Source: Clostridiales bacterium | GTDB lineage: Bacteria; Bacillota; Clostridia; Oscillospirales; Butyricicoccaceae | Length of the DNA stretch: 18,172 nt | Assembly: GCA_019418305.1 (NCBI GenBank) | Contig: DYCA01000016.1 | Location: 1-18,172, forward strand | Reading direction: 5' to 3' | Shown here: positions 2,713-18,172 of the stretch, piece by piece | Position numbering within the stretch: position 1 is the first letter of the stretch | How the letters are laid out: each line of letters opens with the position of its first letter | Made by a program: the position numbers and the translations under genes | The notes under the pieces: model-generated | What the model saw: only the letters and a program-made list of their open reading frames with translations | What the model was told of the DNA's origin: nothing | The model's database searches: none

Positions 2713-2716
2713 GCAT

Positions 2717-3930: not shown

Positions 3931-3968
3931 GCTTTTTTTCATCGGACAGGCAAATTTCTATCCTCTCC

Positions 3969-3997
3969 TTGCACGCGCCCCCACACAATGCTATACT
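3969..3997 (+). promoter_or_regulatory. promoter of the 135-aa membrane protein gene
   Basis: TTGCAC (3969-3974), 17 nt, TATACT (3992-3997), about 57 nt upstream of ATG 4054. It is divergent from and close to the IIC promoter on the other strand. Confidence 0.7.
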
Positions 3998-4053
3998 GAG
4001 GATATCCGGAAGGCCATTTCACCCGCTTTATGTGCGCCAAAGGAGGCGGTCTT

Positions 4054-4461
4054 ATGACGAAACACCCGAACCGCGCCCGTTTTCTTTTACCCGCAGGATA
4101 TTTTGCTGTCTGGCTGCTGGCTCTGCTGTTCTTCTGGTGCTTTACCGGCGCGACCGACGGCATGGCATACGGCTTGCTGGTTATGTGGCTGGCGCTGCCC
4201 GCTGCAACCTTTGTATTTTCCCTTCTGGTTGCAGAAACCAATTGCTGGAACAAGGGTTTCTGGCTCTGCCTGCCGCTGTGCGGCGTGCTATACATGCTGG
4301 TACCATACCTGACGTTTACGCTGGCAAACATGCTGTCCACCCACCGCCTGCACGCTCCCGACTGGAGCGCGCTGCTCATCGGCGCGGTCATCTCCTTGCT
4401 TGGTCTGACGATAGGCCACATCCTGCGCACCTTTCGCGCGCGGACCGTATCCCACCGCTGA
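4054..4461 (+). CDS. small four-helix membrane protein of unknown function
   Basis: A 135-residue protein dominated by four hydrophobic segments (roughly residues 10-32, 38-60, 68-95 and 108-127) with short charged ends. The start at ATG 4054 follows AAAGGAGG at 4039-4046 and is preferred over an in-frame ATG at 4030 upstream of that site. It has a recognisable promoter and a strong terminator, so it is probably expressed as a single gene. No family was recognised: there is no catalytic motif, no transporter signature and no Cys pair. The segment pattern resembles many uncharacterised clostridial membrane proteins. Confidence 0.7.
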   Translation: MTKHPNRARFLLPAGYFAVWLLALLFFWCFTGATDGMAYGLLVMWLALPAATFVFSLLVAETNCWNKGFWLCLPLCGVLYMLVPYLTFTLANMLSTHRLHAPDWSALLIGAVISLLGLTIGHILRTFRARTVSHR

Positions 4462-4467
4462 AAAACG

Positions 4468-4506
4468 AAAGAGCGTGCAAACCGGAAAACGGTTTGCACG
4501 CTCTTT
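4468..4506. terminator. bidirectional terminator between the small membrane protein and MATE genes
   Basis: A 17-bp perfect stem (4468-4484 with 4490-4506) with a 5-nt GAAAA loop, with an A run on the left and a run of six T on the right. It sits 6 nt after the plus-strand stop and 17 nt from the minus-strand stop, so it serves both convergent genes. Confidence 0.95.
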
Positions 4507-4523
4507 TTTCATACGGTCTGCCG

Positions 4524-5885: not shown

Positions 5886-5913
5886 TTCCATACTTCCTTT
5901 CTTTCCCTGCATA

Positions 5914-5943
5914 ATCTTAAGCCCTGCCAAAAGGCTCTGTCAA
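5914..5943 (-). promoter_or_regulatory. probable promoter of the MATE gene
   Basis: On the minus strand a perfect TTGACA (5938-5943) is followed after 18 nt by TAAGAT (5914-5919, 4 of 6), about 29 nt upstream of the start codon. Confidence 0.6.
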
Positions 5944-5970
5944 TCCTTTTTCCTTCCATCGCTCTTGCTA

Positions 5971-5999
5971 TTGACAGAAGATTATAGTAGTATTAGGAA
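5971..5999 (+). promoter_or_regulatory. weak candidate promoter of the two-component operon
   Basis: A perfect TTGACA (5971-5976) lies 100 nt upstream of the response regulator start, but the hexamer at 17-nt spacing, TAGGAA (5994-5999), is poor. Better -10-like hexamers nearby are spaced too closely. A promoter that needs an activator, such as the response regulator itself, would look like this; that is inference. Confidence 0.35.
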
Positions 6000-6076
6000 A
6001 AGCACACAAAGTGCCTGTCAATAAAAGGATTTTCCGGTGGATTTGTCTGCCGGGCAACGGAAACGGAGAGAAAATC

Positions 6077-6775
6077 TTGAAGTATACCATTCTGATTGCC
6101 GAGGACGACCGCGACATCATCGAGCTGCTGACATTGTATCTGAGCAGTGAATTTACCGTGCAGTCCGTCATGGACGGTACTGCAGCGCTTGAGCAAATCC
6201 GTGCAGGGGGCATTTCACTGGCACTGGTGGATATTATGATGCCCGGTCTGAACGGGTATGAGCTGATCCAGCGCGTGCGCGAATTCAGCAACCTGCCCAT
6301 TATCATTCTGTCCGCCAAAAGCATGGACACAGACAAGGTGCTCGGACTGAACATCGGCGCAGACGCCTATATCACCAAGCCCTTCAATGCGCTTGAAGTT
6401 GTTGCCTATGTCAAATCAGCGCTGCGTCGGTATTATCAACTCGGGGCGGACAATGTGTCCACTGCTGCGCCGCGCGTGCTTACCGTCGGTGAGTTAGAAC
6501 TGGATACGGATAAATTTGTGCTGCGGAAAAACGGCCTGACCGTTCCGCTGACTTCCACCGAGCTGAAAATCATTGCGGAAATGATGCGCTGCCCCGGCCG
6601 GGTATTCACCCGCGCACAGCTGTATGAATGTGTGGGCGGCACCTTTTACGAAAGCGATGACAGCACCATGATGGTACATATCTCCAACCTGCGCGCCAAG
6701 ATCGAGCACGATCCGGCCAATCCGCAGTATATTAAAACAGTCAGGGGGTTGGGCTACAAAATTGAAGACCAATAA
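6077..6775 (+). CDS. OmpR family response regulator
   Basis: A 232-residue two-domain regulator. The receiver domain (about 1-118) shows the acidic pair D10/D11, the phosphorylated aspartate D52 in 'LVDIMMPG', and K101 in 'ITKPF'. The C-terminal winged helix (about 135-230) has 'LTSTELKIIAEMM', 'VFTRAQLYECV' and the closing 'HISNLRAKIEHDP...IKTVRGLGYKI'. I chose TTG 6077 because CGGAGAG at 6064-6070 precedes it at 6-nt spacing and the receiver fold begins at once; an in-frame ATG at 6011 would add 22 unlikely residues. The kinase gene overlaps its end by 14 nt. The divergent MATE gene is a plausible target. Confidence 0.95.
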   Translation: MKYTILIAEDDRDIIELLTLYLSSEFTVQSVMDGTAALEQIRAGGISLALVDIMMPGLNGYELIQRVREFSNLPIIILSAKSMDTDKVLGLNIGADAYITKPFNALEVVAYVKSALRRYYQLGADNVSTAAPRVLTVGELELDTDKFVLRKNGLTVPLTSTELKIIAEMMRCPGRVFTRAQLYECVGGTFYESDDSTMMVHISNLRAKIEHDPANPQYIKTVRGLGYKIEDQ

Positions 6776-8372
6776 ACTGCTGCTGAGCAAAAGTTTTCTG
6801 CGCACCTGCATTTCCTATTTCATCCTCTGCTCTCTGCTGGTGTTTCTCAGCAACGCCGCGCTCAACGCACTGATCTCCAAGCGCCTGGACAACGCCTTTC
6901 CCTCCCTCGGCACAATGCTGCAATACCGCGAGGCGCTGGAACAGGATGATTTCGCCTCCATTCCCATGCGCCGCTTCAACGGCTGCGCTTTTATGGTGTT
7001 TGACGCGGACAGTAATATTCTTTATGCCTCAGACAACGACTTCAAAGAGCATTTTCACCCAGATGACCTCTGGATGATTAACGAATATGATTCCGACCTG
7101 TATTATACCGTACAGGAAATGGCAGATATGCCAAGGGACGGATATTACTATATTGCGCTGCACCGCTATGACAGCGAAACCGGCGAGGCTGATTTTCTGG
7201 ATTACTGCATTGTCGACGAGAATTACCGGATTGTCGAGGGCGATCTGTTCCCATGGCTCGAACAGCTATCCGACCGGGAGTTTGAGCTGCTGCAAGGCAT
7301 TTATCAGGGCCAGTGGGACATTACCAAAGCGGTTTATAATACGACGACCGGCGAGGAGCGTACGCTGGTCTTTGTTTGCCCGCGCTTTACCGAAACCGCC
7401 TATCTGAAAGCACTGGAGAGTGCCAACCGACTGTCGCTGCTCTCCCTTCCTATCATTCTGGTGGTCATCCTTCTGCTGGCCATTCTGTTCAGCCGTAAAA
7501 TCCGCCGCGCTATCCTGCCGCTGCACAAAGCGATTGTCGCTTACGGCGCAGGCCGTCGTGTGGAGGTTAACACCGATGCGCTTCCCATCGAATTCCGGCA
7601 GGTAACCGATAGCTTCACTCATCTGCTTGATCGATTAGAGCAGGTCAGTGCAGAAAAGCAAGCGGCCAATGAGGACAAGCAGCGTATGCTTGCCGACCTG
7701 TCACATGATTTGAAAACGCCGCTGACCGTCATCCAAGGCTATGCGCAAGCACTGGTCGACGGCGTAGTGCCGCCCGACAAGCAGCAGCAGTATCTGGAAA
7801 CCATCTGCCGCAAAGCCTCGGACAGCACCGTGTTGATGAACACGCTGTTTGATTATGTCCGCCTCGACCATCCGGACTATGTTTTACAAGCGGAAACTGC
7901 CGACCTGTGCGAATTCTGCAAAAGCTATCTGGCGGAAAAGTACCCTGAAATCGAGTCTCGCGGTTTTTCCCTCTCGCTCGACCTGCCGGATGAGTCGGTC
8001 ACGGCCTATTTTGATCCCCGCCTGCTGCGACGGCTGCTGGAAAACCTGACCAGCAACGCCCTGCAATACAATCCTGCCGGAACAACGCTGTTCTTCGGGC
8101 TGACAGACACTCCTGATGCCGTACAACTAACGGTGGCGGACAACGGTGTCGGTATTCCCCCTGAGTTGGCAGACACTCTGTTTGAGCCGTTCGTCACCGG
8201 GAATCGGGCCAGAACCTCGGGCGGCGGTACGGGACTTGGCATGGCGATCGTCAAAAAGGTAGCGGAGCTGCATAGCGGCTCTATCCGACTGGTGCGTCCG
8301 CCGCACGACGGCTGGCACACCGAATTTGAATTGACGCTGCCCCGACCGGCAGCGCCAACCGAACCCACATAA
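6762..8372 (+). CDS. membrane sensor histidine kinase
   Basis: A 536-residue kinase paired with the preceding response regulator. Segments in order: membrane helix (about 13-33), an extracytoplasmic region of about 185 residues rich in Asp, Tyr and Glu that I do not recognise, a second helix (about 224-243), a HAMP-like linker (244-300), the phosphoacceptor His315 in 'LSHDLKTPL', the N box around N428-N432, DNGVGIP (460-466) and GGGTGLG (487-493). All catalytic boxes are intact. Translation starts at TTG 6762 inside the regulator gene (14-nt overlap), with a GGGGG stretch at 6744-6748 as a rather distant ribosome binding site, so coupling to the upstream gene is likely. A terminator follows at once. 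The signal sensed is unknown. Confidence 0.94.
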   Translation: MKTNKLLLSKSFLRTCISYFILCSLLVFLSNAALNALISKRLDNAFPSLGTMLQYREALEQDDFASIPMRRFNGCAFMVFDADSNILYASDNDFKEHFHPDDLWMINEYDSDLYYTVQEMADMPRDGYYYIALHRYDSETGEADFLDYCIVDENYRIVEGDLFPWLEQLSDREFELLQGIYQGQWDITKAVYNTTTGEERTLVFVCPRFTETAYLKALESANRLSLLSLPIILVVILLLAILFSRKIRRAILPLHKAIVAYGAGRRVEVNTDALPIEFRQVTDSFTHLLDRLEQVSAEKQAANEDKQRMLADLSHDLKTPLTVIQGYAQALVDGVVPPDKQQQYLETICRKASDSTVLMNTLFDYVRLDHPDYVLQAETADLCEFCKSYLAEKYPEIESRGFSLSLDLPDESVTAYFDPRLLRRLLENLTSNALQYNPAGTTLFFGLTDTPDAVQLTVADNGVGIPPELADTLFEPFVTGNRARTSGGGTGLGMAIVKKVAELHSGSIRLVRPPHDGWHTEFELTLPRPAAPTEPT

Positions 8373-8376
8373 AAAC

Positions 8377-8409
8377 AAAAAGGTAGACGGTATCCCGTCT
8401 ACCTTTTTT
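8377..8409. terminator. bidirectional terminator between kinase and deoR-type genes
   Basis: A 14-bp stem (8377-8390 with 8395-8408; core GGTAGACGG / CCGTCTACC), loop TATC, with A run upstream and six T downstream. It closes the two-component operon on the plus strand and the regulator gene (stop at 8417) on the minus strand. Confidence 0.94.
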
Positions 8410-8416
8410 CATGCTG

Positions 8417-9214
8417 TCAGTCCGATGTCTCCGCCGGATCCGGTTGCTCCGCATCGGCATAGATGAGCTGGATATGATACCGTTCGATTTGCTCCAATAT
8501 GCTCTCCGGCAAAGTCGGTCCGGTGGTAATGATGGTGTCAATCTTGTCCGCATCACAGAAATTGAACATCTGGCTGTGATAAAACTTCTGGTTGGCCGCC
8601 ACGACAATGACCCGCTTCGCCGCCGCGATCATTGCCCCTTTGACAGCAGCCTCCGCTTTCAAACCGGTCGTCAGGCTGAGGTTATCCCATACACCCGAAA
8701 GGCCGATAAACGCTTTTTCCGCCTGAATACTGCGGAAGAAATGCTCGGCATCCGAGCCTGCGGTACACAAGCTGTGGTTGAGCATCTGTCCGCCAGCCAC
8801 GCTGATTAAATGGTCGCTGTCCGAAAGAGTATATGGAATGCTGATTGAGTTGGTCGCGATATTGACCGGCGGCCGCCCACGAATTTCGGTAGCGATTGCC
8901 AAAGTGGTAGTGCCTGCATCCAGAATAATCGTGTCATCGCGATCGATCATAGATGCCGCAACCTGCGCAATGCGTTTTTTGTCGTCAATCTGCGAAATCG
9001 AGCGCATATTAAATGGCAGATAGGATTGCTGTGTGGAGAGCGGCAGCGAAATTTTGCCATGCTGCCGCACAATCAGATTTTGCGCGGCAAGCGCACGAAC
9101 ATCCTTGCGGATGGTTACCAGCGAAACCCCCAGCTGCTCGGATAACTCTGCCACGGTTAATGTCCCACGATCCCGCAGCGCACTCAGTATATACTGACTC
9201 CTTGTATTTCCCAT
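8417..9214 (-). CDS. DeoR/GlpR family transcriptional repressor
   Basis: A 265-residue regulator. The N-terminal winged helix (about 6-57) contains 'TVAELSEQLGVSLVTIRKDVRAL' and 'RQHGKISL'. The C-terminal sugar-phosphate-sensing fold (about 79-240) contains 'ILDAGTTTLAIA' (97-108), 'NIATNSI', 'GLSGV', 'EAAVKGAMIAAAKRVIVVAANQKF', in the order normal for the family. DeoR repressors usually release DNA when a phosphorylated sugar intermediate binds that fold. It is divergent from the tct/transketolase operon, and TTCGAAA-type repeats lie on both sides, so it is very probably the operon's local regulator and represses itself. AGAGG about 6 nt upstream (minus strand) supports ATG 9214. The effector cannot be read from the sequence. 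Confidence 0.93.
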   Translation of the reverse strand: MGNTRSQYILSALRDRGTLTVAELSEQLGVSLVTIRKDVRALAAQNLIVRQHGKISLPLSTQQSYLPFNMRSISQIDDKKRIAQVAASMIDRDDTIILDAGTTTLAIATEIRGRPPVNIATNSISIPYTLSDSDHLISVAGGQMLNHSLCTAGSDAEHFFRSIQAEKAFIGLSGVWDNLSLTTGLKAEAAVKGAMIAAAKRVIVVAANQKFYHSQMFNFCDADKIDTIITTGPTLPESILEQIERYHIQLIYADAEQPDPAETSD

Positions 9215-9231
9215 ATTCCACCTCTGTAATA

Positions 9232-9252
9232 ATTCGAAAGCAAATTCGAAAG
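9232..9252. promoter_or_regulatory. tandem repeat operator in the leader of the DeoR-type gene
   Basis: ATTCGAAAG occurs twice, at 9232-9240 and 9244-9252, offset by 12 nt (about one helical turn). It lies just downstream of the minus-strand promoter and 18 nt from the start codon, where a bound repressor would block its own transcription. Confidence 0.65.
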
Positions 9253-9282
9253 TTTAGAAGTTAAAACCCTTTCCTTTTCTGC

Positions 9283-9312
9283 ATTATAGCATATCACGGA
9301 AAGTATTGTCAA
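9283..9312 (-). promoter_or_regulatory. promoter of the DeoR-type repressor gene
   Basis: On the minus strand a perfect TTGACA (9307-9312) and a perfect TATAAT (9283-9288) are separated by 18 nt, about 70 nt upstream of ATG 9214. Confidence 0.85.
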
Positions 9313-9470
9313 CCAGTAAGCATAACAATAATGGCAAACATATACAGTATTGGTTTTCCAATTCGTTTTCTCTCTGCTCGCAGTAAATATAGAATACAAA
9401 GCTCATTTACCTGCTGCTTTTCCTGCGTCCTTTTCTCTAATGAAGCACAAAACTGAATGCACAAATTTTC

Positions 9471-9501
9471 TTTCGAAATTTATACGAAATCAAATACGAA
9501 A
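9471..9501. promoter_or_regulatory. operator cluster upstream of the tctC promoter
   Basis: The palindrome TTTCGAAA (9471-9478) is followed by two TACGAAA repeats, at 9483-9489 and 9495-9501, again offset by 12 nt. The last ends 5 nt before the -35 box. This is the same core as the sites beside the repressor gene, in the orientation opposite to the downstream cluster. Confidence 0.68.
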
Positions 9502-9506
9502 ATAAA

Positions 9507-9535
9507 TTGACACTTTATTATAGTTATGATATATA
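9507..9535 (+). promoter_or_regulatory. promoter of the tct-transketolase operon
   Basis: A perfect TTGACA (9507-9512), 17 nt, and TATATA (9530-9535, 4 of 6). It is bracketed by TTTCG repeats on both sides and is the only good promoter seen before the eight genes that follow. Confidence 0.75.
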
Positions 9536-9570
9536 TAAAACATAAAAGAAAAACGATTGCTCGTTTTAGC

Positions 9571-9610
9571 TTTCGTATTTCGTAAAATTTAGTTTCGTAT
9601 GTTTCGAAAC
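9571..9610. promoter_or_regulatory. operator cluster in the leader of tctC
   Basis: TTTCGTA occurs at 9571-9577, immediately again at 9578-9584, and a third time at 9593-9599; it is followed by the perfect palindrome GTTTCGAAAC (9601-9610). The cluster sits downstream of the promoter and ends 5 nt before the ribosome binding site. TTTCG-type direct repeats are known for DeoR-family regulators such as AgaR, so repression by the divergent regulator is likely. Confidence 0.7.
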
Positions 9611-9628
9611 AATATGGAGGAGAGCGAA

Positions 9629-10627
9629 ATGAAAAGATTTCTTGCTACGTTGCTGGCCCTGACCATGACTGCATCGTTGGCTGCGTGCAGCAGCTCGAAC
9701 GGCAGCACAAGCGACACCGCCGATTCCGGCAATGATACCGCCGGTTCAGATTACCCCTCCAAGGGAATCGAAGTCATCGTCCCGTATAAGGTCGGCGGCA
9801 CAACCGACCTGGCGGTCCGCGGCGTGTTGGACGCCATCCCCAAAGACGTAATCGACCAGCAGATCACGGTAACCAACAAGGAAGGCGGCTCCGGCCTCAT
9901 CGGCACCGAGGACTTCCTGACACGGGATGCGGACGGCTACACACTCGGTCTGGTCAACTGTGACCTCGTCCTCAATTACGTTTCCGGTGCAACCGACATC
10001 AATCCAACCGAAGCGATGAGCCCGCTGGCTGCGGTAGAACAGGACCCGTATCTGCTGCTTGCATCCAAAGACGCACCGTTTACCAGCTTTGCAGAGTTCA
10101 TCTCCTACGCCGAAGCACATCCGGGCGAACTGGCTGTTGGCGTCACCGGCGTTGGCACCGTGCCCAACCTGCTCGGTTCTATTCTGACAGGCGCCGGCCT
10201 GCAGGTTTCTTCCGTTCCGTATGACTCCGCACCGGATGCCATCGCGGGCGTACTGTCCGGTGAAGTTTCACTGTGCATCTCCGCTATGGCGCCGGCAGTC
10301 GGCAATATTGATTCCGGCGACCTGGTTCCGATTGCCGTGACCTCCGCCGAGCGTTCGACCGCTTCTCCGGATGTCCCGACCATGGCGGAAACCGATGACC
10401 GCTTTGCCGATGTAAACCTGCTCAGCTGGATTATGATCGCCGCTCCCGCAGGCACTCCGGATGACATTGTTGCATTCCTGCAAGACGCACTGAGCGAAGC
10501 CGTCGCTTCCGATCAGTATGCGGAGACCCGCGAAGGCTTCTATTTTGAGCCGATCACCATCGGTGTTGACGATCTGGCCGGCTTTATTGCAGAGCAGTCG
10601 GATTATTATACCACTCTGGTTGGCTGA
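9629..10627 (+). CDS. tctC: tripartite tricarboxylate transporter substrate-binding lipoprotein (TctC/Bug family)
   Basis: A 332-residue extracytoplasmic binding protein. The signal peptide ends in a lipobox, L17-A-A-C20, so the mature protein should be lipid-anchored, followed by a Ser/Gly/Asp-rich linker to about residue 40. Family segments are 'YPSKGIEVIVPYKVGGTTDLAVRGV', 'EGGSGLIGTEDFLTRDADGYTL', 'VGVTGVGTVPNL', and 'SPDVPTMAE'. It captures the substrate for TctA/TctB; family ligands are mostly small carboxylates, and some members take sulfonates such as sulfolactate. GGAGGAG at 9616-9622 fixes ATG 9629; an in-frame ATG at 9599 falls inside the operator cluster. It is the first gene of the operon, and a stem-loop separates it from tctB. 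Confidence 0.94.
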   Translation: MKRFLATLLALTMTASLAACSSSNGSTSDTADSGNDTAGSDYPSKGIEVIVPYKVGGTTDLAVRGVLDAIPKDVIDQQITVTNKEGGSGLIGTEDFLTRDADGYTLGLVNCDLVLNYVSGATDINPTEAMSPLAAVEQDPYLLLASKDAPFTSFAEFISYAEAHPGELAVGVTGVGTVPNLLGSILTGAGLQVSSVPYDSAPDAIAGVLSGEVSLCISAMAPAVGNIDSGDLVPIAVTSAERSTASPDVPTMAETDDRFADVNLLSWIMIAAPAGTPDDIVAFLQDALSEAVASDQYAETREGFYFEPITIGVDDLAGFIAEQSDYYTTLVG

Positions 10628-10656
10628 CCCAGCCATATCGTATATCTGTAACAGCG

Positions 10657-10693
10657 GGGCGCGAACCGAACACTCCGTGTTAGGTTCGCGCCC
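10657..10693 (+). promoter_or_regulatory. intercistronic stem-loop between tctC and tctB
   Basis: An 11-bp perfect GC-rich stem (10657-10667 with 10683-10693), continued after a G/A mismatch by a 5-bp stem (10669-10673 with 10677-10681). The downstream sequence TATTTGTAT is not a proper T run. It is therefore more likely an mRNA-stabilising or partially terminating element that lets the binding protein be made in excess over the membrane subunits. Confidence 0.7.
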
Positions 10694-10720
10694 TATTTGT
10701 ATCCTGCGAGGTGAAAGCGT

Positions 10721-11188
10721 ATGAAAAAATACAACATCGGGATCTCGGTCATCCTGATCCTGCTGTCCGCGCTCATGATCCGCAGCAGCCTGCAAAGCGG
10801 TGCGGCGGTACAGGGCACAGCCATGGGGCCGGGTGTCTGGCCCATGATCCTTAGCGTGGCAATGATACTATTGTCTGTCATTCTGATCATACAAACACTG
10901 GTCCGCCCGCGTCCGGAGGGAGAGGAAAAACCGATTGATTTCCGCTCCGCCGGCATGAAGCGCATCTATATCCTAATCGGTCTGCTGGCCTTGTTCTGCC
11001 TGCTGCTCAAACTGTTCGGTTTCTATATAGCAATCATCTATCTGATCCCCTCGGTTATGTTCCTGCTGGGCGAACGGCGTCCATTGGTGCTGATTGGACT
11101 GACGGCCGGCATTGTCGTGTTCATCGTTATCGTTTTTGTCATGCTGCTGCAACTGAAAATGCCCGGCGGCATCCTTCTTTCGTTTTAA
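10721..11188 (+). CDS. tctB: tripartite tricarboxylate transporter small membrane subunit (TctB, DUF1468)
   Basis: A 155-residue membrane protein with about five hydrophobic segments (6-22, 38-60, 82-100, 102-118, 121-143). The phrase 'AMGPGVWPMILSVAMILLSVILI' is the DUF1468 hallmark, and the length is normal for TctB. It forms the transmembrane complex with TctA that accepts ligand from TctC, driven by an ion gradient. GCGAGG at 10706-10711 precedes ATG 10721. It lies 93 nt after tctC, behind the stem-loop, and its stop codon is followed by only 12 nt before tctA. Confidence 0.92.
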   Translation: MKKYNIGISVILILLSALMIRSSLQSGAAVQGTAMGPGVWPMILSVAMILLSVILIIQTLVRPRPEGEEKPIDFRSAGMKRIYILIGLLALFCLLLKLFGFYIAIIYLIPSVMFLLGERRPLVLIGLTAGIVVFIVIVFVMLLQLKMPGGILLSF

Positions 11189-11200
11189 GGAGGCGAAACT

Positions 11201-12712
11201 ATGTTAGAAAGCTTAATTTCGGTCATCGGCGTTGTCCTACAGCCGACGAACCTACTCATTATGCTGCTGGGTACCTTTGTTGGTATCTTTGTCGGTGCAA
11301 TGCCCGGCCTGTCCTCTATTATGGGTCTTAGCCTGATGCTGCCGCTGACCCTGCGCTTTGATGGTTCTACCGGTATCCTGATGCTGTTGGGTGTATTCTG
11401 CGGCGCCATCTACGGCGGTTCGATCACGGCAATCCTTGTGAAAACCCCCGGCACCGCAAACTCCGCCGCTACTGTGCTGGACGGCTATCCGCTGACCCAG
11501 CGCGGAGAAGCGGCACGCGCGCTCGGCATTTCCACCTTTACATCCACTTTCGGCGGCCTGTTCAGCGCAATTATGCTGCTGTGGACCGCACCGCTGCTTT
11601 CCAAGGTTGCGCTGTCTTTTACCTCCCCGGAATATTTCTCACTGGCCATCTTCGGTCTGAGCATGGTCACCAGCCTGTCCTCCAAGGACGTCACCAAGGG
11701 CCTCATCAGCGCCGTGATCGGCCTGATGCTTGCCACGGTCGGCATGGATGCACTGACCGGCGCCAAGCGTTTCACCTTTGGTTCGACCTATCTGCTCGCA
11801 GGCATCGCCATGGTGCCGGTGCTGATCGGCCTGTATGCCTTTTCACAGGGTCTGTTTAATGCGGAAACCATTTCGCAGACAGCCGAACGCAGCAAAGCCA
11901 AACTGCGCCGCACTTTCCCGACTTTCAAGGACATCCGCACGACCTTCCCAACCATGCTGCGTTCGAGCATCATCGGCACGCTGGTCGGCGCTATCCCGGG
12001 TACAGGCGGCGATATCGCTTCCTGGCTTGCCTACAATGAGGCGCGCCGCTGGAGCAAAAACCCCGAAGAATTCGGCACCGGCCGCATTGAAGGCGTCGCT
12101 GCACCGGAGGCAGCAAACAATGCCGTCTCAGGCGGTGCACTTATCCCGCTGCTGACGCTGGGCATTCCAGGCGACGCCGGCACCGCCGTCATGCTGGGCG
12201 CACTGATGATGCAGGGCATCGTCCCCGGTCCGCTGCTGTTCACCTCGGAGCAGACCAAGGTGTACACCATCATTGTCGGCCTGTTCATCGCCAACCTGTT
12301 CATGGGCCTGCTGGGCTTCGGCGGCATCCGTCTGTTCGCCAAGATCGGCGACGTCCACAATAAATACCTGACCCCAATCGTGTTTGTATTCTGCATCGTC
12401 GGCACGTTTGCACTCAATAACAGCGTCAACGATATTTTCCTGATGATGATTTTCGGCCTTATTGCTTTTTTCCTGATCAAGCTCGACTTCCCGATGCCGC
12501 CCATCATTCTCGGCCTGATCCTCGGCAACACGCTGGAAAAGAACCTCCAGCGCGCCCTTTTGGTCAGCAAAGGAGATTTCTCGATCTTTTTCACCCGTCC
12601 CATCTCGCTCGCACTGCTGCTCATCGCCTTCGGCTCTGTGTTCCTGCCGGTCATTCTGCGCAAGATCAACGCAGCGCGGGAAGCCAAGCAGGCAGAGAAA
12701 AACGCGCAGTAA
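11201..12712 (+). CDS. tctA: tripartite tricarboxylate transporter large membrane subunit (TctA)
   Basis: A 503-residue polytopic permease with the strongly conserved TctA blocks. These are 'GAMPGLSS' (32-39), 'TPGTANSAATVLDGYPLTQ' (82-100), 'GAIPGTGGDIASWLAYNEA' (about 262-280), and 'EGVAAPEAANNAVSGGALIP' with 'LGIPGDAGTAVMLGAL' following. About eleven hydrophobic segments fit the family, and the length is typical. It carries the substrate across the membrane with TctB. AAGGAGG (11187-11193) overlaps the tctB stop, 7 nt from ATG 11201, indicating coupled translation. The specificity of TctA cannot be read from sequence alone. Confidence 0.96.
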   Translation: MLESLISVIGVVLQPTNLLIMLLGTFVGIFVGAMPGLSSIMGLSLMLPLTLRFDGSTGILMLLGVFCGAIYGGSITAILVKTPGTANSAATVLDGYPLTQRGEAARALGISTFTSTFGGLFSAIMLLWTAPLLSKVALSFTSPEYFSLAIFGLSMVTSLSSKDVTKGLISAVIGLMLATVGMDALTGAKRFTFGSTYLLAGIAMVPVLIGLYAFSQGLFNAETISQTAERSKAKLRRTFPTFKDIRTTFPTMLRSSIIGTLVGAIPGTGGDIASWLAYNEARRWSKNPEEFGTGRIEGVAAPEAANNAVSGGALIPLLTLGIPGDAGTAVMLGALMMQGIVPGPLLFTSEQTKVYTIIVGLFIANLFMGLLGFGGIRLFAKIGDVHNKYLTPIVFVFCIVGTFALNNSVNDIFLMMIFGLIAFFLIKLDFPMPPIILGLILGNTLEKNLQRALLVSKGDFSIFFTRPISLALLLIAFGSVFLPVILRKINAAREAKQAEKNAQ

Positions 12713-12736
12713 GCGGGAATCGCAGGCGAAACGAAT

Positions 12737-13660
12737 ATGAAACCAAAAAACCTGATCCCTTTACTCTCGCTTGCCGTGATCTGGGGTACCTACTATGTCG
12801 CCAGCAATAAAGCCGTCGAATCCATGTCGGTTTTCAATGTCGGCATCATTATCCGGCTGCTGACCATGCTGTTTTTAACCATAATCATGCTCGGAAAAGG
12901 CGAGATGCACACCTTACTGCACACGCGCGGCGTGCGGTTCCGGCTGTTCCTTATCGGCCTGATGGGCTTTCTGCTGGACTATACGGCGTTTGTCGGCCTA
13001 CAGATGTCAGCCTCAGCCGGGATTGGCACGGCGCTGCTCAAAACGGACATCCTGTTTGTCAATCTGATCAGCGTCATCCTGTACCGGCAGCACTTCAGCC
13101 GCCGCGAATGGCTGTACACGTTTGTGATGCTGTTCGGCGTGCTGATGGTGATGGGGCTTGGCTTATCCAGCCTATCGCAAATCGACCCCAGCTGTCTGTT
13201 TTTTATCCTCAGCGCGCTGTTTGTCTCGATCAATGCATTCCTGATCAAGAGTGTGCAGCGCAGTCCGGTCAATCCGGTTTCCAACCGGGTGATTGCGTAT
13301 TACAACAACTTTATTACCATGCTGTTTTTCCTCGCTACCGCTGCAGCAATGCACACCTTCGATCAGTTTGCGCGCATCGGCAGCAGCCGCCCGCTCGCGC
13401 TTGCCCTGCTCATAGCGGGTCTGGGACAGACACTGGTATATATTGTCTATTACTACAACCTCTCCCATTTCCCCGTCTGGCTGGTCAAAATCTTTCTGCT
13501 GTTCATGCCGGTCGTCTCCAGCGTCATCTCGTTTGTCCTGTTTGACGAACAGCTTGGAGGAAAGCAGATCGCCGGAATGCTGGTCGTGCTGATCGGCGCG
13601 CTGGGCATTCTCATCGAACAGCACAGAAAAGAGGAAGGCGAACTGGCAAACCAAATGTAA
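12737..13660 (+). CDS. EamA/DMT superfamily transporter
   Basis: A 307-residue protein with ten membrane segments arranged as two EamA repeats (about 5-142 and 154-294). It starts with 'LLSLAVIWGTYYVASNKAVESM', has 'ALLKTDILFVNLISVILYRQHFSRREW' at the end of the first repeat and 'MPVVSSVISFVLFDEQLGGKQIAGMLVVLIGALGIL' at the end of the second. Most characterised members export metabolites. The ribosome binding site is weak (CAGGCG, 12723-12728). It follows tctA by 24 nt and precedes the dehydrogenase by 30 nt. That position within a catabolic operon suggests it removes an end product, such as the alcohol formed by the next enzyme. The export role is inference from family and context. Confidence 0.9.
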   Translation: MKPKNLIPLLSLAVIWGTYYVASNKAVESMSVFNVGIIIRLLTMLFLTIIMLGKGEMHTLLHTRGVRFRLFLIGLMGFLLDYTAFVGLQMSASAGIGTALLKTDILFVNLISVILYRQHFSRREWLYTFVMLFGVLMVMGLGLSSLSQIDPSCLFFILSALFVSINAFLIKSVQRSPVNPVSNRVIAYYNNFITMLFFLATAAAMHTFDQFARIGSSRPLALALLIAGLGQTLVYIVYYYNLSHFPVWLVKIFLLFMPVVSSVISFVLFDEQLGGKQIAGMLVVLIGALGILIEQHRKEEGELANQM

Positions 13661-13690
13661 CTCCTCTATACAAGAAAGGAAGCAAGCAAC

Positions 13691-14802
13691 ATGAATTCCG
13701 AATTTCGCTTTTGGATGCCCGCGCATATCCGCTGCGGGCAAGGCGCAGCACGCAATATGCTCGATGAAATCCGCGGCGACAGCGTGCTCATCATTTCCGA
13801 CCCCTTCCTGTATCAAAATGGCACTGCGGAGCGGATCGGCAATGCGCTGACCGGCAAAACCGTGACCTATTTTTCCGAGATTGAGCCCAACCCAAGCACA
13901 ACCAGCGTAGATGCCTGCGCTGCGCTCGCGCGGCAGGCCGGTGCGCAAACCATCGTCGGTCTGGGCGGCGGCTCCAGTCTGGACGTAGCCAACTGACCAC
14001 CAACGAGGGCAGCATCTATGACTACTACGCAGGCGGTACCAAGCAGTTTGCACCGCGTACCACCCGCCTCATCCTCATCCCGACGACTGCGGGCACGGGC
14101 AGCGAAGTGACCAACGTCGGCGTGTTCACCGACCCGCGCGCAGGCATTAAAATGCCGTTTGTCTGCGGCGAGTTCTGGGCGGATGTGGCGCTGATCGACC
14201 CGGAAATGACCTATACGCTGCCCAAGGGGCAGACCGCTTCAACCGGCATGGACGCATTCTGTCATGCCATTGAAGCCTATTGGAACCGCGAAAGCCAGCC
14301 GATGTGCGACTATCTGGCGATGGGCGCCATGAAAACCATTCTGGAAAATATTCGCACCGCTTATGATGAGCCGCAAAATGCACAGGCGCGCGCGGCGATG
14401 ATCGTCTCCGCACTGACGGCGGGCGTAGCATTCAGCCAGACGCGCACCACCGGCGTGCATGCAGTCAGCTTCCCGCTGACGACCGAATTCCACGCCAACC
14501 ACGGCACCGCCTGCGCCATCACCCTGCCGGCCTTCATCCGCGTCAGCACCGAGATGGCGGCGGACAAAATGCAGGCGCTCGCGCAGTTCCTCGGCTATGC
14601 CGATGTGCAGGCGCTGGCCGACGGCATCGAACAGCTGATGGTCGGCATGGGGATGCCCGTGCGTCTGTCGCAGTTGGGTGTGACCGATGCGGACATAGAG
14701 CATATTGCCGCGGTCGGCATGGGTGCCGCCGCGCAGATGCAGTTGACACCCGCCACCATGACGCAGGAGACACTGTGCCGCCTGCTCCGCACAATTTTAT
14801 AA
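13691..14802 (+). pseudogene. iron-containing alcohol dehydrogenase, disrupted by a frame-changing deletion
   Basis: Two frames together give a near full-length group III (iron-type) alcohol dehydrogenase, which reduces an aldehyde with NAD(P)H. The first frame (13691-13996) ends in the nucleotide-binding '[11 protein letters not shown]' and then reads Asn-stop. The second frame resumes at about 13993 with '[12 protein letters not shown]' and runs to 14802. It contains '[12 protein letters not shown]' and all four likely metal ligands: Asp (14251-14253) and His (14263-14265) in '[12 protein letters not shown]', His (14458-14460) and His (14500-14502). Relatives carry about five or six further residues, starting with Lys, between 'DVA' and 'LTTNEGS', so a deletion of roughly 13-19 nt (1 more than a multiple of 3) explains the break better than a single-base slip. 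AAAGGA at 13675-13680 supports ATG 13691. A sequencing or assembly error is possible. Confidence 0.85.
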
Positions 14803-14814
14803 GGAGGCTGCCAA

Positions 14815-15651
14815 ATGGACATGCAAACCAGCCGGATGCTGCGCGACAAGGCGCAGCTGATCCGAAAAATGACCATCCGGGAGATTGGCGAACTGTCCGC
14901 CGGGCATATCGGCGGTTCGGTCGATTTGTGTGAACTGCTCGCGGTGCTGTATTTCCACGCCATGCGTATCCGTCCCGAGCAGCCGGAGTGGAACGAGCGC
15001 GACCGCTTCGTGCTGTCCAAGGGACACGGCGGCCCGGCGGTATACGCGACCCTCGCACTGCGCGGCTATCTGCCGGAGGAGGCGCTCGCCACGCTCAACC
15101 GTCCCGGCACGCAGCTGCCCAGCCATTGCGATATGCAGCGCACCCGCGGCATTGACATGACTACCGGTTCGCTCGGTCAAGGCTTCAGCTGTGCGGTCGG
15201 TATGGCGATCGCCGCCAAAATGGACGCACTGCCCAGCTTCATCTACGCCTGCATCGGAGACGGTGAAAGCCAGGAAGGTCAGGTCTGGGAAGCCGCCATG
15301 CTGGCGGGCAGCCGGCATCTGGGCAACCTCATCGCCTTTACTGACTACAACAAAATGCAGATTGACGGCTGCATCGAGCAGGTCAACGGATTGGAACCGC
15401 TGGACGCCAAGTGGCGCGCGTTCAACTGGCATGTGCAGACGGTGGATGGCCACGATGTGGATGCCATTGCGCACGCAATCGACACCGCACAGAAAATCCA
15501 GAGCCGCCCGTCCATGATCATTCTGGACACAATCAAGGGAAAAGGCTGTGACTTTGCGGAAAACCGCCTTGGCAGTCATAACATGAAGGGGATAACCACG
15601 GATATGTGGCAGAATGCAATCCGCAAGCTCGAACAGCAGGAGGTGCAATGA
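14815..15651 (+). CDS. transketolase family protein, N-terminal (thiamine diphosphate-binding) subunit
   Basis: A 278-residue subunit of a split transketolase. The thiamine diphosphate motif runs from GDG (148-150) through 'EGQVWEAAMLAGSRHLGNL' to N179-K180. Other family marks are H31 in 'SAGHIGGS', 'SKGHGGPAVYATLA' (68-81), 'TTGSLGQGF' (116-124) and 'KGKGCDF' followed by H255. With the C subunit it would move a two-carbon ketol unit from a ketose donor to an aldehyde acceptor in the cytoplasm. AAGGAGG (14801-14807) overlaps the dehydrogenase stop, 7 nt before ATG 14815. Its stop overlaps the C-subunit start. The length matches stand-alone N subunits of Clostridia. Within a dedicated catabolic operon it is more likely a pathway enzyme than the housekeeping pentose phosphate transketolase. 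Confidence 0.93.
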   Translation: MDMQTSRMLRDKAQLIRKMTIREIGELSAGHIGGSVDLCELLAVLYFHAMRIRPEQPEWNERDRFVLSKGHGGPAVYATLALRGYLPEEALATLNRPGTQLPSHCDMQRTRGIDMTTGSLGQGFSCAVGMAIAAKMDALPSFIYACIGDGESQEGQVWEAAMLAGSRHLGNLIAFTDYNKMQIDGCIEQVNGLEPLDAKWRAFNWHVQTVDGHDVDAIAHAIDTAQKIQSRPSMIILDTIKGKGCDFAENRLGSHNMKGITTDMWQNAIRKLEQQEVQ

Positions 15652-16601
15652 TGGCAAGAGAACTGGAAACGCAAGGTCTGCGTGAAGTATATTCCGACCT
15701 GCTGATCGAATACGGCAAACAGGATCCTCGCATTTGCGCGGTAGACGCCGACCTGATGAACGCCTCTTCCGTGCTTCGGTTTCAGGCAGTTTTCCCCGAA
15801 CGTGCGATTGACGTCGGCGTTGCCGAGGCCAACATGATTGGTGTCGCCGCCGGACTCTCTGCGATGGGAAAAATCCCGTTTACGCACAGCTTCACCCCGT
15901 TTGCCACCCGCCGCTGCTGTGATCAGGTGACGCTGTCGGTCGCTTATGCCGGACTGAATGTCAAAATGGTCGGCAGCGACCCCGGCATCACAGCCGAACT
16001 CAACGGCGGCACCCACATGAGCACCGAAGATATTGCAATCATGCGCAATATCCCCGGCATGGTGGTCTATGAGCCAGTGGACGGCACCCAGCTGCGCGCC
16101 GCCTTCCCGCAAATCCTTGCACACAACGGACCGGTGTACATCCGGCTGCTGCGCAAACAGGCGGTACATATTTATGATGAAAGCACACCGTTCACGCTCG
16201 GCAAGGGCAACCTGCTGCGCGAAGGCAGCGACGTTTCGATTTTCGCCAGCGGCATCATGGTTGCAGAGGCACTCGACGCCGCAGAGCTGCTGCAAGCCGA
16301 GGGCATTTCCGCCGAAATTATCAACATTCACACCATCAAGCCGCTTGATGAAGAGCTGGTGCTTGCCAGCACCGCGCGCACGGGCTGCGCCGTCACCGCA
16401 GAAAACGCCAGCATCCTCAATGGGCTTGGCGGCGCGGTGGCCGAATGCCTCGTGGAGCACGCCCCCTGCCCGATGGAACGCGTCGGTTTCCGCGACCGGT
16501 TTGGTGAAGTGGGAAAAATGGAGTATTTGCGTCAAGCCATCGGGCTGACCGCACAGGATATCGCGGAGGCTGCGCGCCGCGCCGTCGCCCGTAAGAAATA
16601 A
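15651..16601 (+). CDS. transketolase family protein, C-terminal subunit, variant active site
   Basis: A 316-residue partner of the preceding subunit, with the pyrimidine-binding domain first ('DVGVAEANMIGVAAGL', catalytic Glu59) and the C-terminal transketolase domain after about residue 190. Compared with E. coli transketolase as I remember it, phosphate-binding His461 corresponds to D110 in 'VGSDPGIT', Asp469 to N118 in 'ELNGGTHM', while His473 (H122) and Arg520 (R165 or R168) appear kept. Housekeeping split subunits normally read 'ATHAGIT.GEDGATHQ' here. This SDPG/NGGTHM subgroup is common in Clostridia but poorly characterised. AGGAGG at 15638-15643 fits ATG 15651 at 7 nt; ATG 15648 is the alternative. 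The start overlaps the N-subunit stop, favouring equal production. Confidence 0.92.
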   Translation: MARELETQGLREVYSDLLIEYGKQDPRICAVDADLMNASSVLRFQAVFPERAIDVGVAEANMIGVAAGLSAMGKIPFTHSFTPFATRRCCDQVTLSVAYAGLNVKMVGSDPGITAELNGGTHMSTEDIAIMRNIPGMVVYEPVDGTQLRAAFPQILAHNGPVYIRLLRKQAVHIYDESTPFTLGKGNLLREGSDVSIFASGIMVAEALDAAELLQAEGISAEIINIHTIKPLDEELVLASTARTGCAVTAENASILNGLGGAVAECLVEHAPCPMERVGFRDRFGEVGKMEYLRQAIGLTAQDIAEAARRAVARKK

Positions 16602-16612
16602 ACCTGAATACC

Positions 16613-16636
16613 AAAGGAGGAAAGGCGAATTTCGCC
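16613..16636 (+). promoter_or_regulatory. ribosome binding site bridged to its start by a hairpin
   Basis: AAAGGAGG at 16613-16620 is 23 nt from ATG 16644, too far for normal use. Between them GGCGA (16624-16628) pairs with TCGCC (16632-16636) around a 3-nt loop. Folding this hairpin leaves an effective spacing of about 10 nt. No other in-frame ATG, GTG or TTG lies nearer. Confidence 0.5.
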
Positions 16637-16643
16637 GCAAGCC

Positions 16644-17123
16644 ATGAAAAAAATCATTGTAGCATCCGACCGCGCAGGCTTTACACTCAAGGAAGCGGTC
16701 AAGGAGCATTTGACCGAACTGGGATACGAAGTGACCGATGTGGGCAGCAAGGACACCGGAGACGGCGGCATGGCCTATTGGCAGGCCGCAAAGAATTTAG
16801 CGCCCCGCGTCAGCAGCGGTGAATTTGAGCGCGGCATCCTGGTATGCGGCACAGGCATGGGCATGAGCATCGTTGCCAACAAGTATCCGAACGTCTATGC
16901 TGCGCTTTGCGAAAATACCTTCTGCGCGCACAACTGCCGCGCCGTAAACAATGCCAACGTACTGACCATGGGCGGCTGGATCACGCCGCCGTATACCGGC
17001 ATCGCCATCACCGACACCTTCCTGAACACGGAATTTCTCGAAGGCGTCACCGAGTGGCAGACGGAAAACCTGCCAATCTTCTTGAGTGAGGTAAAAAATA
17101 TCGAAAAAGAGAATTTCCACTGA
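16644..17123 (+). CDS. RpiB/LacA/LacB family isomerase lacking the usual phosphate pocket
   Basis: A 159-residue aldose-ketose isomerase of the PF02502 family. The core 'LVCGTGMGMSIVANKYPNVYAALC' holds the catalytic Cys68 and Thr70, and 'NNANVLTMGG' is also conserved. Compared with E. coli RpiB from memory, His10 is R10 ('SDRAG'), ring-opening His99 is V101 ('RAVNN'), and the phosphate-binding Arg133 and Arg137 align with T136 and T140. The canonical 'DYP' is 'MAYW'. The catalytic base is kept but phosphate and ring handling appear lost, so ribose 5-phosphate is an unlikely substrate. LacB proteins also differ at some of these sites, so this is suggestive only. It is the last gene of the operon, 42 nt after the transketolase. 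It would interconvert an aldehyde and a ketone intermediate between two transketolase steps if the pathway is of the sulfo-TK type. Confidence 0.9.
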   Translation: MKKIIVASDRAGFTLKEAVKEHLTELGYEVTDVGSKDTGDGGMAYWQAAKNLAPRVSSGEFERGILVCGTGMGMSIVANKYPNVYAALCENTFCAHNCRAVNNANVLTMGGWITPPYTGIAITDTFLNTEFLEGVTEWQTENLPIFLSEVKNIEKENFH

Positions 17124-17171: not shown

Positions 17172-17207
17172 GGACAGACCCTATTTCACGGGTCTGTCCA
17201 TTTTTTT
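17172..17207 (+). terminator. terminator of the tct-transketolase operon
   Basis: A perfect 10-bp stem, GGACAGACCC (17172-17181) with GGGTCTGTCC (17190-17199), an 8-nt loop, then A and seven T. It is the first good terminator downstream of the operon promoter at 9507, implying a transcript of about 7.7 kb. Confidence 0.93.
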
Positions 17208-17318: not shown

Positions 17319-17744
17319 ATGAAGTCAATGAATCATAAAACCGCAAAAGGCGTTGCCGCTATTTCGCTGGCTATGATGATGGCACTGCCCGCGCTGACCG
17401 GCTGTTCTTCGCTTATCAAATCCGACCAGAACGCCGAACCCGCACAGGAGGCAACCACGCAGACACAAACGCAAACGACCACTGCTGACACCAAGGACAC
17501 ATCCAGCACGGATACAAAGAGCAAAGCCAGCTCCTCCACCAAAAAGAAGGCGGCAGTCAAGCAGTCCGGCAGCGTCAAATCCTCCAAGAAGAGTGTGAAG
17601 AAGGCTTCCGGTAAGTCCTCCTCCACCCAGAAGGCTGCAACGTCCTCTAGCAAGACCGCATCCACTCAGAAGACTGCAACGTCCTCCAACAAGACCACAT
17701 CCACTCAGAAGGCCGCCTCCACACCGGCCGCCAATAAGAAATAA
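17319..17744 (+). CDS. low-complexity Ser/Thr/Lys-rich lipoprotein
   Basis: A 141-residue protein with a lipoprotein signal peptide ending in L26-T-G-C29, preceded by 'AAISLAMMMALPA'. After the anchor comes a Gln/Thr-rich stretch (about 40-60), then a strongly basic Ser/Thr/Lys region to the end, including a 13-residue repeat (STQK-x-ATSS-x-KT-x) present twice and begun a third time. No folded domain is recognisable, and the chain would extend as a flexible, positively charged tether from the membrane into the cell wall. AAAGGAGA (17303-17310) precedes ATG 17319 by 8 nt. The stop is 42 nt before an adenylation-enzyme gene, with no terminator between, so they may be cotranscribed. Function unknown; wall or teichoic acid contact is only a guess from charge. 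Confidence 0.78.
   Translation: MKSMNHKTAKGVAAISLAMMMALPALTGCSSLIKSDQNAEPAQEATTQTQTQTTTADTKDTSSTDTKSKASSSTKKKAAVKQSGSVKSSKKSVKKASGKSSSTQKAATSSSKTASTQKTATSSNKTTSTQKAASTPAANKK
17623..17718 (+). repeat. 39-bp in-frame tandem repeat
   Basis: Unit 1 (17623-17661) and unit 2 (17662-17700) match at 34 of 39 positions, and a partial third copy begins at 17701. Units are a multiple of three, so copy number can change without breaking the frame; each encodes 13 residues. Confidence 0.85.
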
Positions 17745-17786: not shown

Positions 17787-18172
17787 ATGAACAACATCCT
17801 GGAACTTCTAGAGCACACCGCCGCCGCGCGGCCGGAAAAAACCGCCGTCATCGACGAAAACGGCGCAGACCGCTTTGACACGCTGCTTGACCGCAGCCGC
17901 CGCTGCGGCACCGCGCTTGCCGCGCACCTCTCCCCCACCGCACCGGTTCCGGTGCTGCTGGACAAGAGCCGCGAAGCTCTGTACGCCTTTTTCGGCGCGG
18001 CGTACGCGGGTTGCTTTTATGTTCCGCTCTCTCCCGCGCTGCCGCAGCCGCGGCTGACGCAGATTCTCTCGGTCCTGCAAGCCCCCTGCATCGTGACCGA
18101 CCGGGAACATGCCGCGCTGGCCGCGCAGCTGCCCGGCGTGGGACGCATTCTTCTGGTTGAAGAGCTGCTGCA
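17787..18172 (+). CDS. AMP-binding adenylation enzyme, N-terminal part (DltA/NRPS-like), cut by window end
   Basis: The frame starting at ATG 17787 stays open to the window edge (128 complete codons). The sequence fits the first subdomain of an ANL-superfamily adenylating enzyme of the amino acid type: 'ILELLEHTAAARPEKTAVIDENG', 'LLDRSRRCGTALA', 'VPVLLDKSREALYAFFGAAYAGCFYVPLSP', then 'RLTQILSVLQAPCIVTD'. The AMP-binding core motifs lie beyond the window. Relatives activate an amino acid or carboxylic acid with ATP and load it on a carrier protein, as DltA does with D-alanine for teichoic acid. A weak ribosome binding site (TGAGG, 17777-17781) precedes it. DltA and stand-alone NRPS-like ligases cannot be separated from this fragment. 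Confidence 0.82.
   Translation, partial: MNNILELLEHTAAARPEKTAVIDENGADRFDTLLDRSRRCGTALAAHLSPTAPVPVLLDKSREALYAFFGAAYAGCFYVPLSPALPQPRLTQILSVLQAPCIVTDREHAALAAQLPGVGRILLVEELL

Follow-up and report, generated by a model that had tools for sequence, protein, structure and literature searches.

What does a transketolase operon act upon when it holds the enzymes of a sulfosugar pathway, lies behind a TctABC importer, and has no sulfoquinovose (SQ) isomerase beside it? The question is raised by an 18,172-base stretch of DNA (the window, meaning the whole stretch that was analysed), on the plus strand of which the genes read tctC-tctB-tctA-eamA-(Fe-ADH)-TK-N-TK-C-rpiB, that is, the three parts of the importer, an EamA permease, an iron-type alcohol dehydrogenase (Fe-ADH), the N- and C-terminal subunits of a split transketolase (TK-N and TK-C), and an RpiB/LacAB-type isomerase, with deoR divergent from them. 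By sequence, the source is an Agathobaculum-like bacterium; the closest contig fetched, locus L001 from a metagenome-assembled genome (MAG) of an uncultured Agathobaculum sp., is 87.8% identical over 11.4 kb, and the TK-N proteins of the two are 97% identical. The operon is real, with successive gaps of 93, 12, 24, 30, 12, -4, and 42 bp (the TK-C start being taken as 15648), and all genes other than Fe-ADH are open and 96–99% identical to those of L001. The gene classes that an earlier note on this DNA had named were all recovered in place and on the right strand; the Fe-ADH, listed among them, is broken.

With a probability of roughly 0.6, the operon encodes the core of a reductive sulfosugar transketolase (sulfo-TK) pathway (SqwF, SqwG, SqwH, and SqwI with an EamA exporter), placed behind TctABC and DeoR, that would turn a sulfosugar into isethionate; a sulfonated sugar as the substrate overall appears about as probable and includes, in part, the ordinary use of SQ. 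In the proposed route, the sulfonated sugar would enter via TctABC and, as a ketose, would be cut by the split transketolase, with glyceraldehyde-3-phosphate accepting the C2 unit; the products would be xylulose-5-phosphate and a sulfonated C4 aldose. This aldose would be turned into a ketose by the RpiB-type enzyme, and the transketolase would then remove a second C2 unit, leaving sulfoacetaldehyde to be reduced to isethionate by the Fe-ADH and presumably exported by EamA. These reactions and transport steps are proposed from gene content, gene order, family membership, and the position in the transketolase tree, which were observed directly. The earlier note had offered either a sulfo-TK-like pathway or a keto-uronate analogue; the first is favoured, since the transketolase nests with a Clostridium sporosphaeroides sulfo-TK locus (ultrafast bootstrap 100) and the Fe-ADH, EamA, and RpiB proteins are similar to those of such loci, and the second is considered less probable.

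The split transketolase and its relatives

TK-N (14815–15651, plus strand; Pfam 190.3 bits), the thiamine diphosphate subunit, has a split-chain transketolase, 6yak, as its best solved relative, and is followed by TK-C (15648–16601, plus strand; Transket_pyr 109.9 and Transketolase_C 102.3 bits), the open reading frame (ORF) of which is open from a GTG at 15606, with the ATG at 15648 assumed as the start. By Pfam and by tree, the two appear SqwG-like and SqwH-like, respectively. A TK-N scan of a species-genome collection confirmed 425 stretches, and the best 80 of these 425 form the locus set used hereafter: 50 of the 80 hold a relative of the SQ isomerase SftI (tblastn E < 1e-20, identity with the query being only 21–31% in some); relatives of RpiB are present in 62 of them and TK-C in 78, and among loci of at least 16 kb, SftI is present in 27 of 39. 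For the isomerases of L005, L010, and L014, SftI was the only NCBIfam model returned, at 407, 372, and 204 bits, all below its cut-off of 700; the family 31 glycoside hydrolase (GH31) of L010 scores above the cut-off of PRK10426, which we take to be the YihQ family.

A maximum-likelihood tree (LG+G4+F) was built from 108 loci with both subunits, loci without a long enough match to either being dropped, and only the grouping is used, because the midpoint root falls on one divergent sequence. The window, L001, and L002 group together (100) and are joined in order by L003 with L004 (100), by L012 (100), and by L044 (93), and all of these fall within a group of clostridial and Acholeplasma loci, mainly sulfo-TK ones (support 97–98); some of the nodes in between are weak (48, 51, and 74). 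L012 is the C. sporosphaeroides locus, with SftI, a YihQ-type GH31, and DUF4867. The tree thus assigns the split transketolase to the clostridial SqwGH group. SftI-linked transketolases do not form one clade, and sulfo-TK may have been gained or lost repeatedly.

TK-N at 80% identity or more was found in two of 87 genomes of the family (G001 and G002, the genomes of L001 and L002); at E <= 1e-104, only G001 and G261 (60%) were returned among 394 genomes of the order, and at E <= 1e-112, only G004 among the 297 genomes of its own order. An ordinary pentose-phosphate transketolase and RpiB is judged unlikely, as other split transketolases of the family form a clade apart (100) and the canonical RpiB residues are absent. 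These other enzymes comprise 25 pairs from 24 family genomes (L088–L111 and L113), with no SftI in their 3–4-kb loci, and they stand nearer to the sulfo-TK group of spirochaetes and Bacteroidota (98) than the window does.

Comparison with a characterised system points the same way. In PMC11659671, the SqwG, SqwH, SqwI, and SqwF proteins of Faecalicatena DSM22707 are given as 63, 68, 58, and 64% identical to those of strain MSTE9, and most genes of the Faecalicatena cluster as SQ-induced. Against the Faecalicatena contorta locus L030, the window shows 63% identity for TK-N, 71% for TK-C, 55% for the isomerase, and 58% for EamA, and the reductase of L001 shows 64%, so that by these values the core would be about as close to F. 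contorta as the two published members are to each other. L030 keeps the order published by gene numbers (SQ isomerase, glycerol dehydrogenase, a kinase in brackets, reductase, two transketolase subunits, isomerase, two transaldolases, drug/metabolite permease, and repressor), with a DUF4867 protein where the published cluster has a mutarotase. The window shares with the reductive sulfo-TK systems of Clostridium sp. MSTE9 and Faecalicatena the four enzyme families, the split transketolase, the EamA-type permease, and the arrangement with the reductase upstream of the transketolase and the isomerase downstream. It differs in having TctABC rather than ABC or MFS import, DeoR rather than ROK control, and another isomerase signature, and neither it nor L001, L002, or the extended contigs yielded an SQ isomerase, a sulfoquinovosidase, DUF4867, or a transaldolase.

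AptAB, the apulose-4-phosphate transketolase, is likewise a split two-subunit enzyme and needs a phosphorylated substrate made by a kinase. No kinase lies in the window's operon, and the apiose pathway was rejected on this ground, AptAB being compared by description only. The earlier note had proposed that clustering with enzymes of proven phosphorylated substrates would speak against a sulfo-TK role; no such clustering was seen, in a comparison set that holds no enzyme of that kind, such as AptAB, and L003 and L004 show that the branch has been reused.

Reductase, permease, and import

In the window, the first Fe-ADH frame (13691–13996, plus strand) stops at 13996 after 101 aa, and the remainder lies in another frame (14107–14802, plus strand, as an ORF taken from its first start codon); the intact homologue in L001 has 374 aa, and the window is short of 13 bp at about 13990. 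The intact L001 protein is 61–64% identical to the Fe-ADH of 10 clostridial sulfo-TK loci, 65.5% to that of L138, and 48–55% to those of L010, L017, L019, and L044; by similarity, it fits the sulfoacetaldehyde reductase type, SqwF. Its neighbour, an EamA/DMT permease (12737–13660, plus strand; Pfam EamA 90 bits) that is the likely exporter of the C2 product, is 52–59% identical to the EamA of clostridial sulfo-TK loci and 40–45% to those of Thermotogae. Of the 80 loci, 13 have EamA (L001 included), all of them with Fe-ADH and none with SqwD/SqwK; SqwD/SqwK occur in 24 of the 80, none of which has Fe-ADH, and MatC in 16, all with SqwD/SqwK. Because EamA always accompanies Fe-ADH and never SqwD/SqwK, it is, by co-occurrence, a marker of a reductive, isethionate-type ending, and in the window it is kept beside Fe-ADH, TK, and RpiB.

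The import genes comprise a 332-aa solute-binding lipoprotein, TctC (9629–10627, plus strand; Pfam TctC 128 bits), of which the ATG start at 9629 agrees with 332-aa homologues, a small membrane subunit, TctB (10721–11188, plus strand; 71.8 bits), and a large one, TctA (11201–12712, plus strand; 522.5 bits), so that the predicted products amount to a transporter of the tripartite tricarboxylate transporter (TTT) family in one operon. The ligands recorded for this family in PMC5812351 are citrate, other carboxylates, glucarate/galactarate, and the sulfonate sulfolactate; the last is served by SlcHFG, a TTT-type importer like that of the window, the likeness being one of transporter family only and set by description. 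The best solved relative of TctC is 25hk_A (122.5 bits), and the solved relatives leave the ligand undecided. At E <= 1e-60, TctC was matched among 391 genomes of the class only in G001, and in the 45 genomes of related transketolase loci the next best after G001 and G002 is at 33–34%, so that no ligand can be read from genomic context.

No description of a TTT importer joined to sulfo-TK was found in the literature searched. A TctA lies directly ahead of the sulfo-TK genes in L010 (90 bp before the GH31 gene) and in L060, at contig ends in both, and both loci carry SftI. Since these TctAs are no closer to the window's than TctAs away from sqw genes, the comparison favours TTT import of sulfosugars as something that has recurred, and not as shared inheritance. 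The operon may also be kept together in further lineages, as suggested, without proof, by the coincidence of longest contig sizes: 9410 for the isomerase P0136, TK-N P0005, and TctC P0252 alike, and 5841, 18874, and 4825 for isomerase and TK-N pairs. The protein collection from which these come also includes TctC proteins at 64–77%.

The isomerase and the entry compound

The isomerase (16644–17123, plus strand; Pfam LacAB_rpiB 146 bits) looks SqwI-like and bears a sequence signature of its own. In the isomerase tree, the window, L001, and L002 group together (100) among SqwI-type neighbours, with canonical RpiB separate (100) and a weak backbone (37–76). Relative to 47 SftI-linked isomerases, Cys68, Thr70, and Asn102 are conserved in the window's enzyme. 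His10, His101, Arg142, and Arg146 (window numbering), present in all five RpiB comparators chosen, are found in none of the window, L001, and L002, so the sequence does not conform to a canonical ribose-5-phosphate isomerase B. The ring-opening role of the histidine in RpiB is described in PMC4783025 and PMC3755991; at its position, 101, all 47 SftI-linked enzymes have Ile or Val, the window group lacks the His, and all five canonical enzymes have it. Its loss fits an aldose with a terminal acid group and is expected with one, because such an aldose cannot close its ring. That the RpiB-type enzyme might itself be the SQ isomerase was judged unlikely, because the ring-opening His is absent.

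Within the SqwI-like enzymes, the window's group stands apart. In a protein collection, 1129 relatives passed E 1e-20, and the best 120 were listed, of which 119 were usable after one 88-aa fragment (97% identical) had been dropped; these best 119 split sharply into 18 at 72–99% identity and 101 at no more than 63%. All 18 carry Arg10, Thr136, Gln139, Pro144, and Phe146; the 101 others all carry Ser11, Glu136, and Arg139, their residue 10 being Lys, Gly, or Leu, and Lys97, absent from the 18, occurs in 96 of them. In the alignment, residue 10 corresponds to the phosphate-binding His of RpiB/LacAB. The stretch that contains residue 139 has nothing aligned to it in canonical RpiB, whose phosphate-site Arg residues match positions 142 and 146; that residue 139 binds the acid group is a guess, because it is based on conservation and on a place near the C-terminal Arg residues. 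The LacAB isomerase site lies between subunits, according to the paper on LacAB. Of the 62 isomerase positions that do not vary among nine sulfo-TK loci, 13 are changed in the window group (21%; leave-one-out values run from 1/63 to 10/72), against 5/130 in TK-N, 9/149 in TK-C, and 11/167 in the alcohol dehydrogenase (4–7%), all three within their leave-one-out ranges. Faster drift would be an alternative to a change of substrate, because the isomerase is also the least similar protein overall, at 53% between L001 and the nine loci, the other enzymes being at 62–66%.

The absence of an SQ isomerase from the window, observed in the earlier note, extends to the 23.6-kb L001 contig, and likewise to L002 and the extended contigs L139 and L140. 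When the search for an SQ isomerase and a sulfoquinovosidase that the note had called for was run in the two related genomes, SftI had no match in G001 (a 1.7-Mb MAG) and reached 70.6 bits in G002 (a 2.7-Mb MAG), on a short contig beside a DUF4867 fragment; no YihQ-type GH31 over cut-off was found in either genome (NAD-dependent sulfoquinovosidases were not searched there), and PF07221, the YihS family, was absent from G001, G002, G004, G005, and G017. The absence is suggestive only, because both genomes are MAGs of unstated completeness. Elsewhere, SftI scores at least 200 bits in G017, G447, G445, G454, G446, G456, G479, G462, and G459, 135 in G461, and 52–67 in G003 and G004, with no match in G005; a YihQ-type GH31 exceeds its cut-off in one of eight genomes (G447), and G446 has two sulfo-TK loci, L010 with SftI and the short L011 without it. 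Weak SftI-like isomerases (52–71 bits) stand beside DUF4867 in L143 (80–1551) of G002, as a fragment, and in L081 (964–3693) of G003, the latter with an FGGY kinase match alongside; outside SQ loci, too, DUF4867 may accompany this isomerase superfamily.

The two related genomes yielded no convincing SQ isomerase, and the window's isomerase has departed from the SqwI type. For these reasons, SQ processed by the ordinary route is probably not the entry compound, and the pathway would be entered at a point below or beside the SQ isomerase. A tentative version of the sulfo-TK reading, held at somewhat less than even odds, is that another sulfonated ketose or sugar acid is taken in by the TTT importer and processed with an SqwI-like isomerase that has been re-specialised. 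A second design of this sort, with a different transketolase, may be that of G005, which has an SsuA-like importer and a zinc dehydrogenase and gave no SftI match. Its module L138 (G005:C2:1258000-1277000) and that of G017, L141 (G017:C35:90000-108000), repeat the EamA, Fe-ADH, RpiB, and TK-N/TK-C neighbourhood of the window. They differ in their SsuA-like binding protein, in a zinc dehydrogenase nearest the L-idonate-5-dehydrogenase model (both under cut-offs), in an isomerase with Lys10 and Arg139, and in transketolases placed elsewhere than in the window's group, the L138 enzyme falling among other split transketolases of the family. In L138, the Fe-ADH (66%) and RpiB (58%) stand behind an SsuA-like ABC importer, possibly for a sulfonated polyol pathway; L141 combines SftI (52%), an SsuA-like importer, RpiB, transketolase, a zinc dehydrogenase, DeoR (38%), and EamA (41%).

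Several observations weigh against a sulfo-TK function. L003 and L004, the nearest transketolases outside the window's trio, come from loci without RpiB or alcohol dehydrogenase, and L004 (3825–9800) has an FGGY kinase above the xylulokinase cut-off, a 3-hexulose-6-phosphate synthase, and a mannitol-1-phosphate-dehydrogenase-like gene; in L044 (Hungatella effluvii, 5509–13932), a DeoR (50%), Fe-ADH, and TK-N/TK-C precede a class II aldolase, RpiB-DUF3666, and PTS-like genes (the last by eye). Judged from L004 with its kinase set and L044 with its aldolase and PTS-like genes, the transketolase branch around the window has been reused. The sulfo-TK loci of spirochaetes and Bacteroidota group (98) with the 25 other split transketolases of the family and L138, and across the family as a whole, transketolase sequence by itself, as aligned here, is therefore insufficient to tell sulfo-TK from other functions. 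In the window, the reductase frame is interrupted, by a mutation or an assembly error that the data do not distinguish; its intact form in L001 is only 38–40% identical to the Fe-ADH of four clostridial sulfo-TK loci (L007, L008, L015, and L029), and none of the NCBIfam Fe-ADH models, SarD among them, scores as high as its cut-off. The TctAs of L010 and L060 are 45 and 43% identical to that of the window, and unlinked ones reach 55%. Gln139 replaces an Arg present in all 101 other listed isomerase relatives, and the sulfonate chemistry of the pathway is read from sequence alone. By eye, L004 also has a sugar ABC importer, as part of a different, undefined transketolase pathway.

Of the competing explanations, ordinary SQ use survives best and overlaps with the sulfo-TK reading, being unlikely yet the least so: TctABC would import SQ itself, and the SQ isomerase would be encoded elsewhere. 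SftI can indeed lie apart from the core, being some 5 kb outside the fetched locus L009 on its G445 contig. G454 (L029) also has one, at 420 bits, and a TctA does stand beside the SftI-bearing loci L010 and L060. This explanation is opposed by the lack of any SftI match in G001 and by the G002 match, which is weak and has a DUF4867 fragment for a neighbour, an arrangement shared with the kinase-linked set of G003, as well as by the lack of a YihQ-type hydrolase over cut-off and of PF07221 in both genomes, which are MAGs of unstated completeness, the contigs of L001 and the window ending soon after rpiB; moreover, it leaves the change in the isomerase unexplained.

Less probable still is a keto-uronate (fructuronate or tagaturonate) brought in by TctABC and cut by the transketolase to a C4 aldehyde acid. 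After isomerisation, a second cleavage would yield glyoxylate, to be reduced to glycolate and sent out of the cell. The known TTT ligands are mostly carboxylates, including glucarate/galactarate (PMC5812351), and the isomerase lacks the Arg139 and Lys97 of its relatives; in G005, a gene over the D-mannonate oxidoreductase cut-off adjoins the similar module, with UxaA- and UxaB-like genes (by eye) within about 11 kb. Yet TK-N, TK-C, and the reductase have changed at so few of the sites invariant in nine sulfo-TK loci (4–7%), the G005 binding protein is SsuA-like (98.8 bits, cut-off 163.5), and its isomerase keeps Lys10 and Arg139. Beta-keto acids are prone to decarboxylation, and the C4 keto acid of this route would be one. 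No keto-uronate transketolase pathway appeared in the titles or abstract openings of the literature searched. The hexuronate genes of G005 just named, the first of them a short-chain dehydrogenase/reductase, lie in L186 (1004–11994) and give a hint in favour of the uronate option.

Reuse of the module for a neutral or phosphorylated sugar is a shade more doubtful than the keto-uronate route; the sister L004 with its xylulokinase-type set and the neighbour L044 with its aldolase, RpiB-DUF3666, and PTS-like genes (by eye) provide the precedent, but EamA and an SqwI-type isomerase were not found in those loci and are both kept in the window, whose operon has neither kinase nor PTS and whose isomerase lacks the RpiB phosphate-site residues His10, Arg142, and Arg146. 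A decaying operon, out of use in the window's strain because the reductase is frame-broken, is no more credible than such reuse. It draws on the 13 bp missing near 13990 and the shift of frame there, for which misassembly may be to blame; the other operon genes are open and 96–99% identical to L001, and the reductase of L001 is intact.

The conversion of sulfosugars to isethionate feeds hydrogen-sulfide producers of the gut such as Bilophila, according to PMC11659671. If the sulfo-TK core of the window runs on a compound other than SQ, an unrecognised sulfonated sugar would take part in the diet or in cross-feeding, and gene surveys demanding an SQ isomerase would miss such organisms; if a keto-uronate were the substrate, it would represent a transketolase route for uronates not found in the literature searched.

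Control region and neighbouring genes

The operon's candidate regulator, of the DeoR/GlpR family (8417–9214, minus strand; Pfam DeoRC 140.9 bits, with HTH_DeoR), is 97% identical to that of L001, 72% to that of the Butyricicoccus locus L140, and 50% to that of L044. The 414-bp gap between deoR and tctC (9215–9628) contains 11 of the 12 TTTCGWA matches in the window, at nine separate places, as two palindromes are counted on both strands, and none of 200 shuffled windows reached 12 matches. In L001, 11 of 12 matches likewise fall in the same gap; L140 has no TTTCGWA, and four of its nine TTTCGWW matches lie in its 339-bp gap. Because TTTCGWA clusters in the deoR/tctC gap of both the window and L001, there is good evidence for a local DeoR regulon with putative operators at these places, to which DeoR would bind. 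A sigma-70-type site for deoR, matching at 12 of 12 positions, lies at 9312–9283. After rpiB, a stem with a T run at 17172–17199 (plus strand; 10 pairs, seven of them GC) resembles an intrinsic terminator; it is the longest in the scan, whose total is near chance (10 found, 9.3 expected).

Upstream, an OmpR-type response regulator and a histidine kinase (6011–8372) lie directly ahead of the deoR gene, and on the L001 contig an ORF of the kinase's size (536 aa) also adjoins deoR. The region 696–5987 holds a PadR-type regulator, a permease-prefix-domain protein, and a DUF554 protein, followed by three ORFs (2769–3581, 3585–5117, and 5136–5987) with no match in Pfam (E 1e-4) or NCBIfam (E 0.001). 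Downstream of the operon, a small lipoprotein-like ORF rich in Ser, Lys, and Thr (17319–17744) is followed by the start of an AMP-binding gene (17787–18172), which is cut by the end of the window.

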